IMG/VR virus record: IMGVR_UViG_3300030106_000971
Coordinates: 1-28,916 of that record
Length of the DNA: 28,916 bases
From: a virus
Direction: 5' to 3' (one strand)
Numbering within the stretch: the first letter of the stretch is position 1; each line of letters begins with the position of its first letter. The notes under the pieces were generated by a model, which saw nothing but the letters and a program-made list of their open reading frames with translations, was not told the origin of the DNA and did no database searches. This document shows positions 8,671 through 13,445 of this stretch, in pieces. The position numbers were made by a program, and so were the translations under genes.

Positions 8671-9052
8671 AATATGGCATAGATTTAATACAGATATTAA
8701 AGCACTCAAAAATGATTGTGTTGATGTTATTAGTAAGTGTTATTTAATGTTAGGACAAAAGCCTGATGCACAACAAGTTGTAACAATGGCTAGTTTATTA
8801 TATTATGATTTAATAAATAGATATTCTACTATGACAATACAAGAGGTGCAATTTGCTTTAGAGAAAGGCATAAAAGATGGTGATGATCTAAATTGTTTTA
8901 TAAATGCTAGAAGTTGGAATGTATGGTTAAAACAACATAAAAAAAGTGAGCAATTAAAAAGACAACAAAAACTAATTACAGATTATCAAAAACACGAGCA
9001 AAACATTAAAGCAATAGATAGTACAATAAATAAAGCAAAACAATTAAAATGA
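8663..9052 (+). CDS. Possible helicase loader-type protein
   Basis: A 129-residue helical protein. The segment MLGQKPDAQQVVTMASLLYYDLINRYSTMTIQEVQFALEKGIKDGD resembles the helical core of small replication-accessory proteins of the helicase-loader type found after phage initiator genes, and the C-terminal third is a charged helix. It overlaps the initiator by 8 bases and the methyltransferase by 4 (ATGA). No ATPase motif is present. The role is mainly inferred from order and general pattern. Confidence 0.45.
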   Translation: MDKIWHRFNTDIKALKNDCVDVISKCYLMLGQKPDAQQVVTMASLLYYDLINRYSTMTIQEVQFALEKGIKDGDDLNCFINARSWNVWLKQHKKSEQLKRQQKLITDYQKHEQNIKAIDSTINKAKQLK

Positions 9053-9690
9053 AAGTGTTAGAATTATTTGCAGGTAGTCGTAGTATAGGAAATGTCGCAG
9101 AAAAATATGGTTGTAAAGTTTTTAGTGTTGATATTATAAATTTTAAAAAAATAAATTTAGTTAAAGATATTTGTAATGTAAATATGAATGACATTCCTTT
9201 TTATCCTGACATGATTTGGGCATCACCACCTTGTACATATTTTAGTGTAGCTAGTATAGGACATCATTGGAACGAAGATCATACTCCAAAAACTAAAGAA
9301 GCTATAAAAGGCATGGAAATTCTTGAAGCTACTTTAAATCTTGTTTTAAGCTATAAAAAAAGCATATATTACATAGAAAATCCAGTTGGTAAAATGCGAA
9401 GAAAAATAAAAGGAATAAACAGAACAACAATTACATATTGTAGTTATGGTGACAATAGAATGAAGCCAACAGACATTTGGAGTAATAATATATTTGACAT
9501 ATTTAATATAAATGGTTGGAAACCGAAGTCACAATGTTTTGCAGGAAACAAAAAATGTCACCACGAAGAAGCACCAAGAGGTAGTAAAACTGGAACTCAA
9601 GGACTTAAAAATAATTATGAACGCAGTAAAATACCTGAACAATTATGTAAAGATATTATTGAAGCAACAATTTATAAACTAAAAAAATAA
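9049..9690 (+). CDS. DNA (cytosine-5) methyltransferase-like protein
   Basis: A 213-residue small C5 methyltransferase. Motif I is VLELFAGSRSIG (3-14) for S-adenosylmethionine binding. Motif IV is WASPPCTYFS (57-66) with catalytic C62. The motif VI counterpart is IENPVG (109-114), with Glu110. The C-terminal NNYERSKIPEQLCKDI matches the RSxIPxxL element near motifs IX-X. It is shorter than restriction-modification C5 enzymes, as is common for solitary phage methylases. It may protect phage DNA from restriction. Target specificity cannot be read from the sequence. Confidence 0.8.
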   Translation: MKVLELFAGSRSIGNVAEKYGCKVFSVDIINFKKINLVKDICNVNMNDIPFYPDMIWASPPCTYFSVASIGHHWNEDHTPKTKEAIKGMEILEATLNLVLSYKKSIYYIENPVGKMRRKIKGINRTTITYCSYGDNRMKPTDIWSNNIFDIFNINGWKPKSQCFAGNKKCHHEEAPRGSKTGTQGLKNNYERSKIPEQLCKDIIEATIYKLKK

Positions 9691-11622: not shown

Positions 11623-11881
11623 ATATTATTATGATTTTACTAGAAACATGAAATGTGATGAAATGTTAGAAGATGAAAACAAAGTACCTGCATACTATGT
11701 AGGGCGTAAAGGTATGATGGCTAAAGATGTTATATATGAGTTTGATTTATCATATAATTTAGGAACTGCATGTAGTTACATTTTACGTGCAAAACGTAAA
11801 CACAAATCACCAATAGATTGTATAAAAAAAGCTATAGCACATTTAGAGTTTGAAATAAATAATTTAGAAAATGAAAGTTAA
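11606..11881 (+). CDS. DUF3310-family protein
   Basis: I chose ATG 11606 (91 residues); the upstream TTG at 11573 would only add a shadow of the previous Lys-rich tail. The segment FDLSYNLGTACSYILRAKRKHKSPIDCIKKAIAHLEFEI matches the DUF3310 core (LGxaxxYilRaxxK...xdxxKAxxhLe), a small helical domain frequent in phages and sometimes fused to or described as nucleotide-kinase-associated. Its biochemical role is not established. It overlaps the ParB-like gene by 11 bases. Confidence 0.7.
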   Translation: MQEKSKYYYDFTRNMKCDEMLEDENKVPAYYVGRKGMMAKDVIYEFDLSYNLGTACSYILRAKRKHKSPIDCIKKAIAHLEFEINNLENES

Positions 11882-12446
11882 ATATGTAAAACCATATGAG
11901 GTAAAAGTAAATTCTAATAATCCTAGATTTATAAAAGATAATAAGTTTGATAAATTAACACAAAGTGTTAAAGATTTACCACAAATGTTAAAAATGCGAC
12001 CAATAATTGTAGATGATGATATGATTATATTAGGTGGTAATATGCGTTATCAAGCATGTGTTAAAGCAGGTTTAGATAATATACCTATTATACAATACAC
12101 AAAAAAAATGCATGAAAGTTTAGATACTGATAAAACATATGAACAAACATGTAAAGAAATTATTATAAAAGATAATGTAGGTTTTGGAGAATGGGATTGG
12201 GATATATTAGCAAATGAATGGAATACAGTAGAATTAACTGATTGGGGATTAGATGTATGGCAAAACCAAGATGATTTAATAGAGCCTGATTTTAATGATT
12301 TAACAGATGATAATATAAATAAGCCACCTGTTATTAAAATTACTTTTGCAAATGAAAATGATTTACAAAATGCAGAAACAGAAATAGCAAAAATAGTTAG
12401 TAAATACAATAAGGCAATATATTCAGTAAGTGCTGGAGAATTATGA
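11871..12446 (+). CDS. ParB/Sulfiredoxin-like nuclease-domain protein
   Basis: A 191-residue protein. Residues about 1-75 form a ParB N-terminal-like domain: NNPR (16-19), RPIIVDDDMIILGGNMRYQACVKAG (43-67) with the conserved GGxxRYxA loop that binds nucleotide in this fold. The middle keeps the DNVGFGEWDWDILANEW...LTDWGLDVW pattern common in phage ParB-like proteins that accompany DNA methylases or modification enzymes. The C-terminus (about 140-191) is a small alpha/beta domain. It overlaps the Mom-like gene by 4 bases, so the two probably act together in DNA modification; such proteins are not partition factors here, as no ParA is present. Confidence 0.8.
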   Translation: MKVKYVKPYEVKVNSNNPRFIKDNKFDKLTQSVKDLPQMLKMRPIIVDDDMIILGGNMRYQACVKAGLDNIPIIQYTKKMHESLDTDKTYEQTCKEIIIKDNVGFGEWDWDILANEWNTVELTDWGLDVWQNQDDLIEPDFNDLTDDNINKPPVIKITFANENDLQNAETEIAKIVSKYNKAIYSVSAGEL

Positions 12447-13009
12447 TATTAAAAAAGGCATCACATAAAGCTATAAAGTATGCATGTTTAAAATTTCATT
12501 ATAGTAAAAGTATGCCTGTAAATGTATTAGGATTTTCAGTATTTAATAAAAAAAATGAATGGTGTGGTTGTATTGTATATGGTTTAGGTGCTAATAATAA
12601 TTTAGCAAAGTCATTTAATGAGCCACAAGGTAGTGTAATAGAATTAGTTAGAATGGCTTTGAATGGTAAACAAGAAAGCACAAGCAAAGCGATGTCATTA
12701 AGTATAAAAATATTAAAAAAATATTTACCTTTAGTTAAATTAATTGTAAGTTATTCAGACATGGCTCAAAATCATAAAGGTATTATATATCAAGCATGTA
12801 ATTTTTACTATGTCGGTTACACACAAAGTAGGAGTGCAATAGATCCACAAGACGGTAAAATTAAACATACAAGAATATTGCATAATAAATATGGTAGTAT
12901 AAAAGGTTTTACAAGTGTAAAAGATAAACCAAAACACAAATATTTATATCCTTTAACAAAACAATATAGGAGTATATGTGAAAATATGAAAAAAGCATAT
13001 CCTAAATAA
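12443..13009 (+). CDS. Mom-like DNA adenine modification enzyme (GNAT fold)
   Basis: A 188-residue protein matching the phage Mu Mom pattern: FHYSKSMP (18-25), FSVFNKKNEWCGCIVYG, VIELVRMAL (65-73), then IVSYSDMAQNHKGIIYQACNFYYVG (101-125), the GNAT-like core with Asp106, His111 and Tyr116. Mu Mom converts adenine to N6-carbamoylmethyl-adenine and shields phage DNA from many restriction enzymes. The partner ParB-like gene lies immediately upstream, and the gene sits next to terminase, so modification may happen before packaging. The donor and exact product cannot be read from sequence. Confidence 0.8.
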   Translation: MILKKASHKAIKYACLKFHYSKSMPVNVLGFSVFNKKNEWCGCIVYGLGANNNLAKSFNEPQGSVIELVRMALNGKQESTSKAMSLSIKILKKYLPLVKLIVSYSDMAQNHKGIIYQACNFYYVGYTQSRSAIDPQDGKIKHTRILHNKYGSIKGFTSVKDKPKHKYLYPLTKQYRSICENMKKAYPK

Positions 13010-13081
13010 GCGAGTAAAGCATAAAGAGTAATGCGTTGGCTAATCCAAGTCAAAGAAGAGGTGCAATTCCATCTACTCGCT
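13009..13081 (+). ncRNA. tRNA-like structured RNA upstream of terS
   Basis: The gap folds as a full cloverleaf by hand. Acceptor-like stem: GCGAGTA 13010-13016 with TACTCGC 13074-13080, extended by A13009-T13081. D-like arm: GCAT 13019-13022 with ATGC 13031-13034, 8-base loop. Anticodon-like arm: TTGGC 13036-13040 with GTCAA 13049-13053 (one G-U), 8-base loop. T-like arm: AGAGG 13057-13061 with CC...TCT 13069-13074 around one bulged A (13071; the last pair competes with the acceptor stem), 7-base loop TGCAATT 13062-13068, resembling the canonical T-loop. Departures from a decoding tRNA are the 8-base anticodon loop, no GG in the D loop, the bulged T stem and no encoded CCA. It may be a tRNA mimic, or serve in processing, terS translation or packaging. 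Confidence 0.65.
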
Positions 13082-13094
13082 CAAAACATATAAT

Positions 13095-13445
13095 ATGGAC
13101 AAAAATAGACACTTAAAAAAGGAAACAATAATAAAGGCTTTAGAAAGTAGTTTAGGTGTAGTTACAACTGCATGTAAAAAAACTGATATACCTAGAAGTA
13201 CATTTTATAAATGGCTTAAAGAAGATGATGATTTTGCAAGTAAGGTAAAAGATATAGAGAATGTTAGTCTAGATTTTGCAGAAAGTAAATTGTTTGAACA
13301 GATACAAGAAAATAATACAAGTGCTACTATATTTTATTTAAAAACAAAAGGTAGAAAACGTGGCTATTGGGAGAAACAACAAATGGATATGACTACAGAT
13401 GATGAGCCTGTACAAATAAACATTAAACTTACTGATGAAGATTGA
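13095..13445 (+). CDS. terS: Terminase small subunit
   Basis: A 116-residue protein with an N-terminal helix-turn-helix (IIKALESSLGVVTTACKKTDIPRSTFYKWLKED, about 9-41) as in TerS DNA-binding domains. A helical oligomerisation part (VKDIENVSLDFAESKLFEQIQENNTSATIFYLKTKGRKRGYWEK) follows, with the F-x-L-K-x-x-x-R-x-R-GY-W pattern common in small terminases. The acidic C-terminus can contact TerL. It overlaps terL by 11 bases. It recognises the packaging site, which may lie in or near the structured gap just upstream. Confidence 0.85.
   Translation: MDKNRHLKKETIIKALESSLGVVTTACKKTDIPRSTFYKWLKEDDDFASKVKDIENVSLDFAESKLFEQIQENNTSATIFYLKTKGRKRGYWEKQQMDMTTDDEPVQINIKLTDED

Follow-up and report, generated by a model that had tools for sequence, protein, structure and literature searches.

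A divergent tRNA-Gly gene genomically linked to the phage DNA modification gene mom, and its proposed role as glycine donor

The modified base of phage Mu DNA is alpha-N-(purin-6-yl)glycinamide (N6-carbamoylmethyl-adenine; Swinton 1983, cited in PMC3874153), and an acyl-CoA such as glycyl-CoA has been proposed as its donor (PMC7824862). In S. aureus, non-proteinogenic tRNA-Gly carries changes in the T stem and escapes EF-Tu (PMC9976931, PMC8007984). The tRNA-Gly(UCC) of the S. aureus pentaglycine bridge, which is among the closest parallels to the RNA described below, has altered D and T regions, is a GlyRS substrate, is poorly used by EF-Tu and serves a non-ribosomal transferase, the charging and EF-Tu traits being those of the S. 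aureus RNA (PMC8007984, PMC9976931); it showed that such specialisation happens. The bacterial glycine identity set consists of G1-C72, C2-G71, C35, C36 and U73 (PMC9976931), and tRNA-Gly(ACC) has been described as universally missing (PMC8007984). U73 shields Gly-tRNA from the deacylase DTD (PMC6097841), a protection from which a charged tRNA not bound to EF-Tu would benefit. By analogy, aminoacyl-tRNA-dependent transferases of the Fem, Aat and MprF types also bring an amino acid from tRNA to a non-ribosomal use, whereas the acceptor in the system proposed here would be DNA. To our knowledge, no aminoacyl-tRNA-dependent transferase with DNA as acceptor has been described.

The window analysed here was the whole 28,916-nt stretch of DNA (positions 1 to 28,916) of IMG/VR virus record IMGVR_UViG_3300030106_000971. 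A mom-like gene encoding a DNA adenine modification GNAT was located on the plus strand at 12443–13009 (Pfam Mom PF25680, E 8.8e-35). The AlphaFold model of its product (pLDDT 92.8) had a GNAT fold, and the closest structure was Mu Mom (8bv8; Z 18.6, rmsd 3.2 over 171 residues), with the next entry at Z 11.2. In the alignment, the serine replaced in the inactive Mu Mom mutant S124A corresponded to the near-invariant S81 of the window protein, with an inferred numbering offset. On this predicted structure, the window protein is a Mom that shares the fold of the Mu enzyme. None of 31 Mom sequences contained the canonical acyl-CoA loop [QR]xxGx[GA]. Directly upstream of mom lay a ParB-like gene (11871–12446, plus strand; PHROG and weak Pfam ParB_N matches); the same order was found in phiEf11 (Enterococcus), BarretLemon (Arthrobacter), Appa (Microbacterium) and Sicarius2, and the ParB-like gene may belong to the cassette as its third component. 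A DNA methyltransferase-like gene (PHROG 757) was present at 9049–9690, within the early block to which mom also belongs.

The gap between mom and terS (13095–13445) contained a 72-nt element on the plus strand, 13010–13081, extending from G1 to U73 and assigned as a putative non-decoding tRNA-Gly-like RNA gene on the basis of covariance model R1 and covariation in 77 homologues. R1 matched the window at 13010–13084 with 69.2 bits and an E-value of 5e-15, the window sequence being part of the R1 training set. The acceptor stem of 7 bp was formed by GCGAGTA (13010–13016, containing G1, C2 and G3) and TACTCGC (13074–13080), both on the plus strand, as were all other parts. It was followed by the discriminator U73 and an encoded C74 (13081–13082) and then by AA, giving a 3' TCAA and no CCA; T-CCA was encoded by 33/105 members of the RNA family. 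The D arm, GCAT-AAAGAGTA-ATGC, occupied 13019–13034 and had no GG in its loop. The anticodon arm, TTGGC-TAATCCAA-GTCAA, occupied 13036–13053; in place of a 7-nt loop with U33 it had an 8-nt loop with A before the anticodon UCC (13044–13046). The T arm, GAGG-TGCAATT-CC(A)TC, at 13058–13073, had a stem of 4 bp with a bulged A at 13071 instead of the regular 5 bp. G18 G19 and T54-T55-C56, both of which host genes have, were lacking, and the T loop was TGCAATT. Every part of the cloverleaf described in the initial annotation (acceptor, D, anticodon and T arms) was found in the window sequence, as were the oddities it had listed, namely the 8-base anticodon loop, the D loop without GG, the bulged T stem and the missing CCA. 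Its eighth acceptor pair, in which the mom stop codon supplied the first paired base (A13009-T13081), was rejected: position -1 was unconserved, being A in only 23/104 members, and T13081 is U73.

The MFE of the window element was -19.2 kcal/mol, which was reached by 0/200 dinucleotide shuffles (z -2.65); because the opposite strand scored nearly alike (z -2.62), folding energy alone is weak evidence. The element escaped tRNA gene finders and Rfam, as ARAGORN reported 0 genes in it and Rfam gave 0 matches at the gathering threshold. Rfam at a permissive threshold returned only a minus-strand Plastid-ycf2 match of 14.6 bits (E 2.6), for which the gathering score is 65.7; it was regarded as a chance match. 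BLASTN of the region against the phage collection gave no match. For covariation, 77 diverse members were aligned by sequence only and 20 pairs were scored. Paired cells amounted to 96.9%, compared with 64.8% after shuffling, and double-sided changes were found in 524 cells, compared with 141 in shuffles. The covariation score was 0.851, against 0.195 for shuffled alignments and at most 0.148 when the structure was slid. Compensatory changes, which the initial annotation had asked for, occurred in 18/20 pairs, and the pattern it had named as refuting, stems broken by uncompensated substitutions, was not what the alignment showed. In the same alignment, acceptor pairs 1-72 and 2-71 were invariant, 3-70 was kept in 76/77 members and outer pairs of the stem covaried, while the D-arm helix was 95.8% paired with double changes in 4/4 pairs. 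RNAalifold, run independently, returned the same cloverleaf. Covariation is decisive evidence for a cloverleaf RNA, and the earlier reading of the element as a structured tRNA-like RNA was borne out.

The glycine identity set G1-C72, C2-G71, C35, C36 and U73 was present in the window RNA and across the family. Using a cloverleaf parser that set no requirement on the anticodon loop sequence, the anticodon was NCC in 105/105 distinct cloverleafs (UCC 81, ACC 18, CCC 6, GCC 0). Since the acceptor and U73 statistics of this 105-cloverleaf set were filtered on those positions, they were counted in an unfiltered set of 104 members: the anticodon CC was present in 104/104, and acceptor GCG/CGC with T73 in 101/104, the other three being register shifts or an aberrant parse. 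The ACC anticodons are expected if decoding is not under selection. Features used in decoding were lost to varying degrees: the D-loop GG was missing in half of the members, the 7-nt anticodon loop was lost in 28/105 cloverleafs, with 8-nt or 6-nt loops occurring, T55 was lost in many members, and a bulged A lay in the T stem two pairs from the acceptor in 86/105 cloverleafs. Some members were near-canonical tRNA-Gly (L145, Appa). A D-armless class of 39 aligned sequences (alignment A4; for example L185:1185-1254), 68–70 nt long and also at the mom 3' end, kept the GCG..CGC-TCC(A) acceptor, the bulged T stem and CC in an anticodon-like loop, and the bulged A was an invariant column in all 39. 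None of these losses occurred in the tRNA-Gly genes of three Bacteroidetes genomes: in these, GG was present, the anticodon loop was 7 nt long and the T stem had no bulge.

The window RNA is a divergent tRNA-Gly. It shared the cloverleaf, the GCG..CGC acceptor, U73 and C35 C36 with canonical bacterial tRNA-Gly, but was without the features on which decoding and EF-Tu depend, and judged by its sequence it is almost certainly too altered for use in protein synthesis. As in a non-proteinogenic tRNA-Gly, glycine identity was kept and the D-loop, T-loop and T-stem features were replaced. Unlike the S. aureus RNA, it is a phage gene, its partner is a DNA-modifying GNAT and its T stem is bulged; the phage family further differs in having 8-nt loops, D-armless forms and ACC anticodons. 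The earlier suggestion of a tRNA mimic was right as to the tRNA-like structure, for which specialised tRNA-Gly is the better name.

The distribution of the RNA was examined in viral loci fetched by terminase (80) and by Mom protein (80). In relatives, tRNA-like RNAs ranging from near-canonical to very odd occurred at the same place beside mom, at its 3' end and on either strand. ARAGORN found 38 tRNAs in 161 loci, all of them in Mom loci (38/81) and 2–36 bp from the mom end; those to which it assigned an identity were glycine in 35/35 cases, with both strands used. It found no tRNA in the 80 loci without Mom. R1, which was built from loci also present in the searched sets and whose E-values are partly circular, matched 83/84 loci found with the window's Mom, 98/99 loci fetched with the Mom proteins of BarretLemon (Arthrobacter phage) and Appa (Microbacterium phage), and 53/80 loci fetched with the Mom of Enterococcus phiEf11. 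Two of the 98 matches were 2.2 kb (L240) and 0.7 kb (L326) away, and the misses of the phiEf11 set were Enterococcus and related prophages. The ARAGORN result and the pattern scans were independent of R1. In these scans, which started from the RNA, 2.9 million viral contigs were searched for two patterns of T arm plus acceptor sequence, and among contigs with enough sequence Mom adjoined the RNA in 39/39 and 74/77. Locus L417 combined an RNA nearly identical to that of the window with a highly dissimilar neighbouring Mom (E 8.8e-49). In Microbacterium phage Appa, a tRNA-Gly(CCC) encoded opposite to mom was already annotated, and the RNAs of BarretLemon and Sicarius2 were unannotated and overlapped the mom end. 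The evidence for genomic linkage between the RNA and Mom is very strong. Because both strands are used, the RNA is read as acting in trans.

No R1 match was found near mom in Mu, Listeria A511, ICP1, Salmonella VSiP, Proteus P2-71 or Polaribacter P12002L. The window locus thus resembles phage Mu in its Mom (Pfam family, fold and the S124/S81 serines) and differs from it in having such an RNA next to mom. The tRNA-Asn and tRNA-Trp upstream of mom in Enterococcus prophages were discarded as ordinary tRNAs 1.2–1.8 kb away. L163, from a Psychroflexus genome, had a close Mom relative (46–48% identity) with no RNA element beside it, and thus offers a comparison for Mom action in the absence of a dedicated tRNA. 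The mom frame often ran 60–100 nt beyond its conserved PYPK end and through the RNA (L200, L209, L365 and many of L176–L412). In the regions of L523:528 and L486:832, the element followed a C5-cytosine methyltransferase gene, with no Mom seen and the contig ends nearby; in L523, ParB-like and radical-SAM-like genes preceded the methyltransferase gene.

From its place next to terS, the initial annotation had proposed a packaging signal or a control of terS. R1 had two matches in the 80 terminase-selected loci, L010 with a divergent Mom (Pfam E 9e-49) and L073 with a DAM-like/GNAT fusion, and 0 matches in the 78 related terminase loci that had neither Mom nor another GNAT. Conservation at terS was therefore not independent of which gene lay upstream, and phages whose downstream genes differ also have the element next to Mom. 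Because the RNA does not track terS or terminase, it is not a packaging signal or a control of terS. An RNase P/Z site that merely separates mRNAs, also raised at that stage, is disfavoured, as many relatives carry the RNA opposite the mom strand with the same glycine identity.

A tRNA-Gly or tRNA-Gly-like gene was also located directly upstream of, or overlapping, the start of genes of a second family, in which DAM-like-phage1 and GNAT-phage-like domains are fused (L073:1495-2931, L581:2273-2345, L585:1496-2938 and L586:1403-2908). The fusion together with tRNA-Gly occurred in Mycobacterium phage Megabear, Gordonia phage Sting and two environmental contigs. This second GNAT family beside tRNA-Gly argues for a link to chemistry and not to one gene order. 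In L506, a GNAT domain alone was seen in the vicinity of the element, from which a ParB-like gene separated it.

Four other explanations were considered. The RNA might be a decoy for host defences whose target of attack or modification is tRNA-Gly, placed in the anti-defence cassette of Mom. Mom is itself anti-restriction, TacT acetylates glycyl-tRNA-Gly through U73 and G71, and FaRel2 reportedly picks tRNA-Gly by its acceptor stem. However, a decoy would leave unexplained the near-perfect pairing with one enzyme class in distant phages and on both strands, as well as the near-identical element beside the two very different Moms of L417 and the window group, and we consider it very unlikely. 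A charged tRNA-Gly could alternatively serve Mom as an activator or as a DNA/RNA guide while an acyl-CoA is the donor, which would agree with Mom having a GNAT fold and with the glycyl-CoA donor suggested in the literature; as the glycine identity fits a glycine-derived product and the acyl-CoA loop motif is absent, this is very unlikely indeed.

A divergent phage tRNA-Gly of the ordinary kind, which would help to translate glycine codons late in infection and lie near mom only incidentally, would account for the glycine identity and for the near-canonical members L145 and Appa. It would not account for the 8-nt and 6-nt loops, the loss of U33 and of the D-loop GG, the D-armless forms, the bulged T stem, the ACC anticodons reported absent from cellular genomes, or the restriction to glycine and to places beside Mom or a similar GNAT, and it appears highly improbable. 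The least probable reading is that the RNA is part of the mom mRNA and acts there in structure or processing, by protecting the 3' end, by serving RNase P/Z cleavage or by controlling the translation of mom or terS. Overlap with the 3' end of mom is frequent among members on the same strand, and in many of them the frame of mom continues into the RNA, but the identity positions are the same in opposite-strand members and such an element gives no reason for the invariant NCC.

We consider it probable, with good confidence, that the RNA is a phage tRNA-Gly kept out of translation, charged by host GlyRS and delivering glycine to Mom for DNA modification. This is the simplest reading of an RNA that kept the features read by GlyRS, shed those needed by EF-Tu and the ribosome, and is retained, on either strand, only next to an enzyme with a known glycine-derived product. 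Judging from the positions retained, host glycyl-tRNA synthetase would charge the RNA via G1-C72, C2-G71, C35, C36 and U73, and the changes in its D loop, in its anticodon loop and in its T stem may keep it off EF-Tu and the ribosome. Mom, with its GNAT fold, would then take glycine from the RNA and put it on adenines of phage DNA. The product would be glycinamide (N6-carbamoylmethyl-adenine) as in Mu, the modification of Mu being assumed for this Mom clade. In a chemically reasonable route, the glycyl ester would acylate adenine N6, and the glycine amine would then attack purine C6 with migration, a rearrangement that would yield alpha-N-(purin-6-yl)glycinamide. The DNA decoration would probably serve the phage against host defences. 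Points against a glycine donor are the published proposal of an acyl-CoA and the Mom lineages of Mu, Listeria A511, ICP1, Salmonella VSiP, Proteus and Enterococcus and related prophages, which are without the RNA. It follows from the latter that a dedicated tRNA is not required by every Mom; Mom lineages of this kind would have to use host glycyl-tRNA. More broadly, it seems rather likely that in phages of several bacterial phyla translation-dead glycine tRNAs, D-armless ones included, feed at least two GNAT families (Mom and the DAM-like/GNAT fusion) that move glycine to DNA bases.

The literature searched, which had preprints and most subscription journals outside its scope, held no report tying Mom to tRNA-Gly or glycyl-tRNA. 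The Mom base has been known as a glycinamide since 1983, and in this literature its donor has so far been described only as a predicted acyl-CoA. A tRNA-Gly locked to Mom across unrelated phages points to glycyl-tRNA as the donor, and the question is now testable. If the proposal is true, the origin of the Mom DNA mark would be answered and DNA would join the acceptors of tRNA-borne amino acids; there would also be a viral route for removing tRNAs from translation, and a large RNA family missed by tRNA finders and Rfam would be defined.
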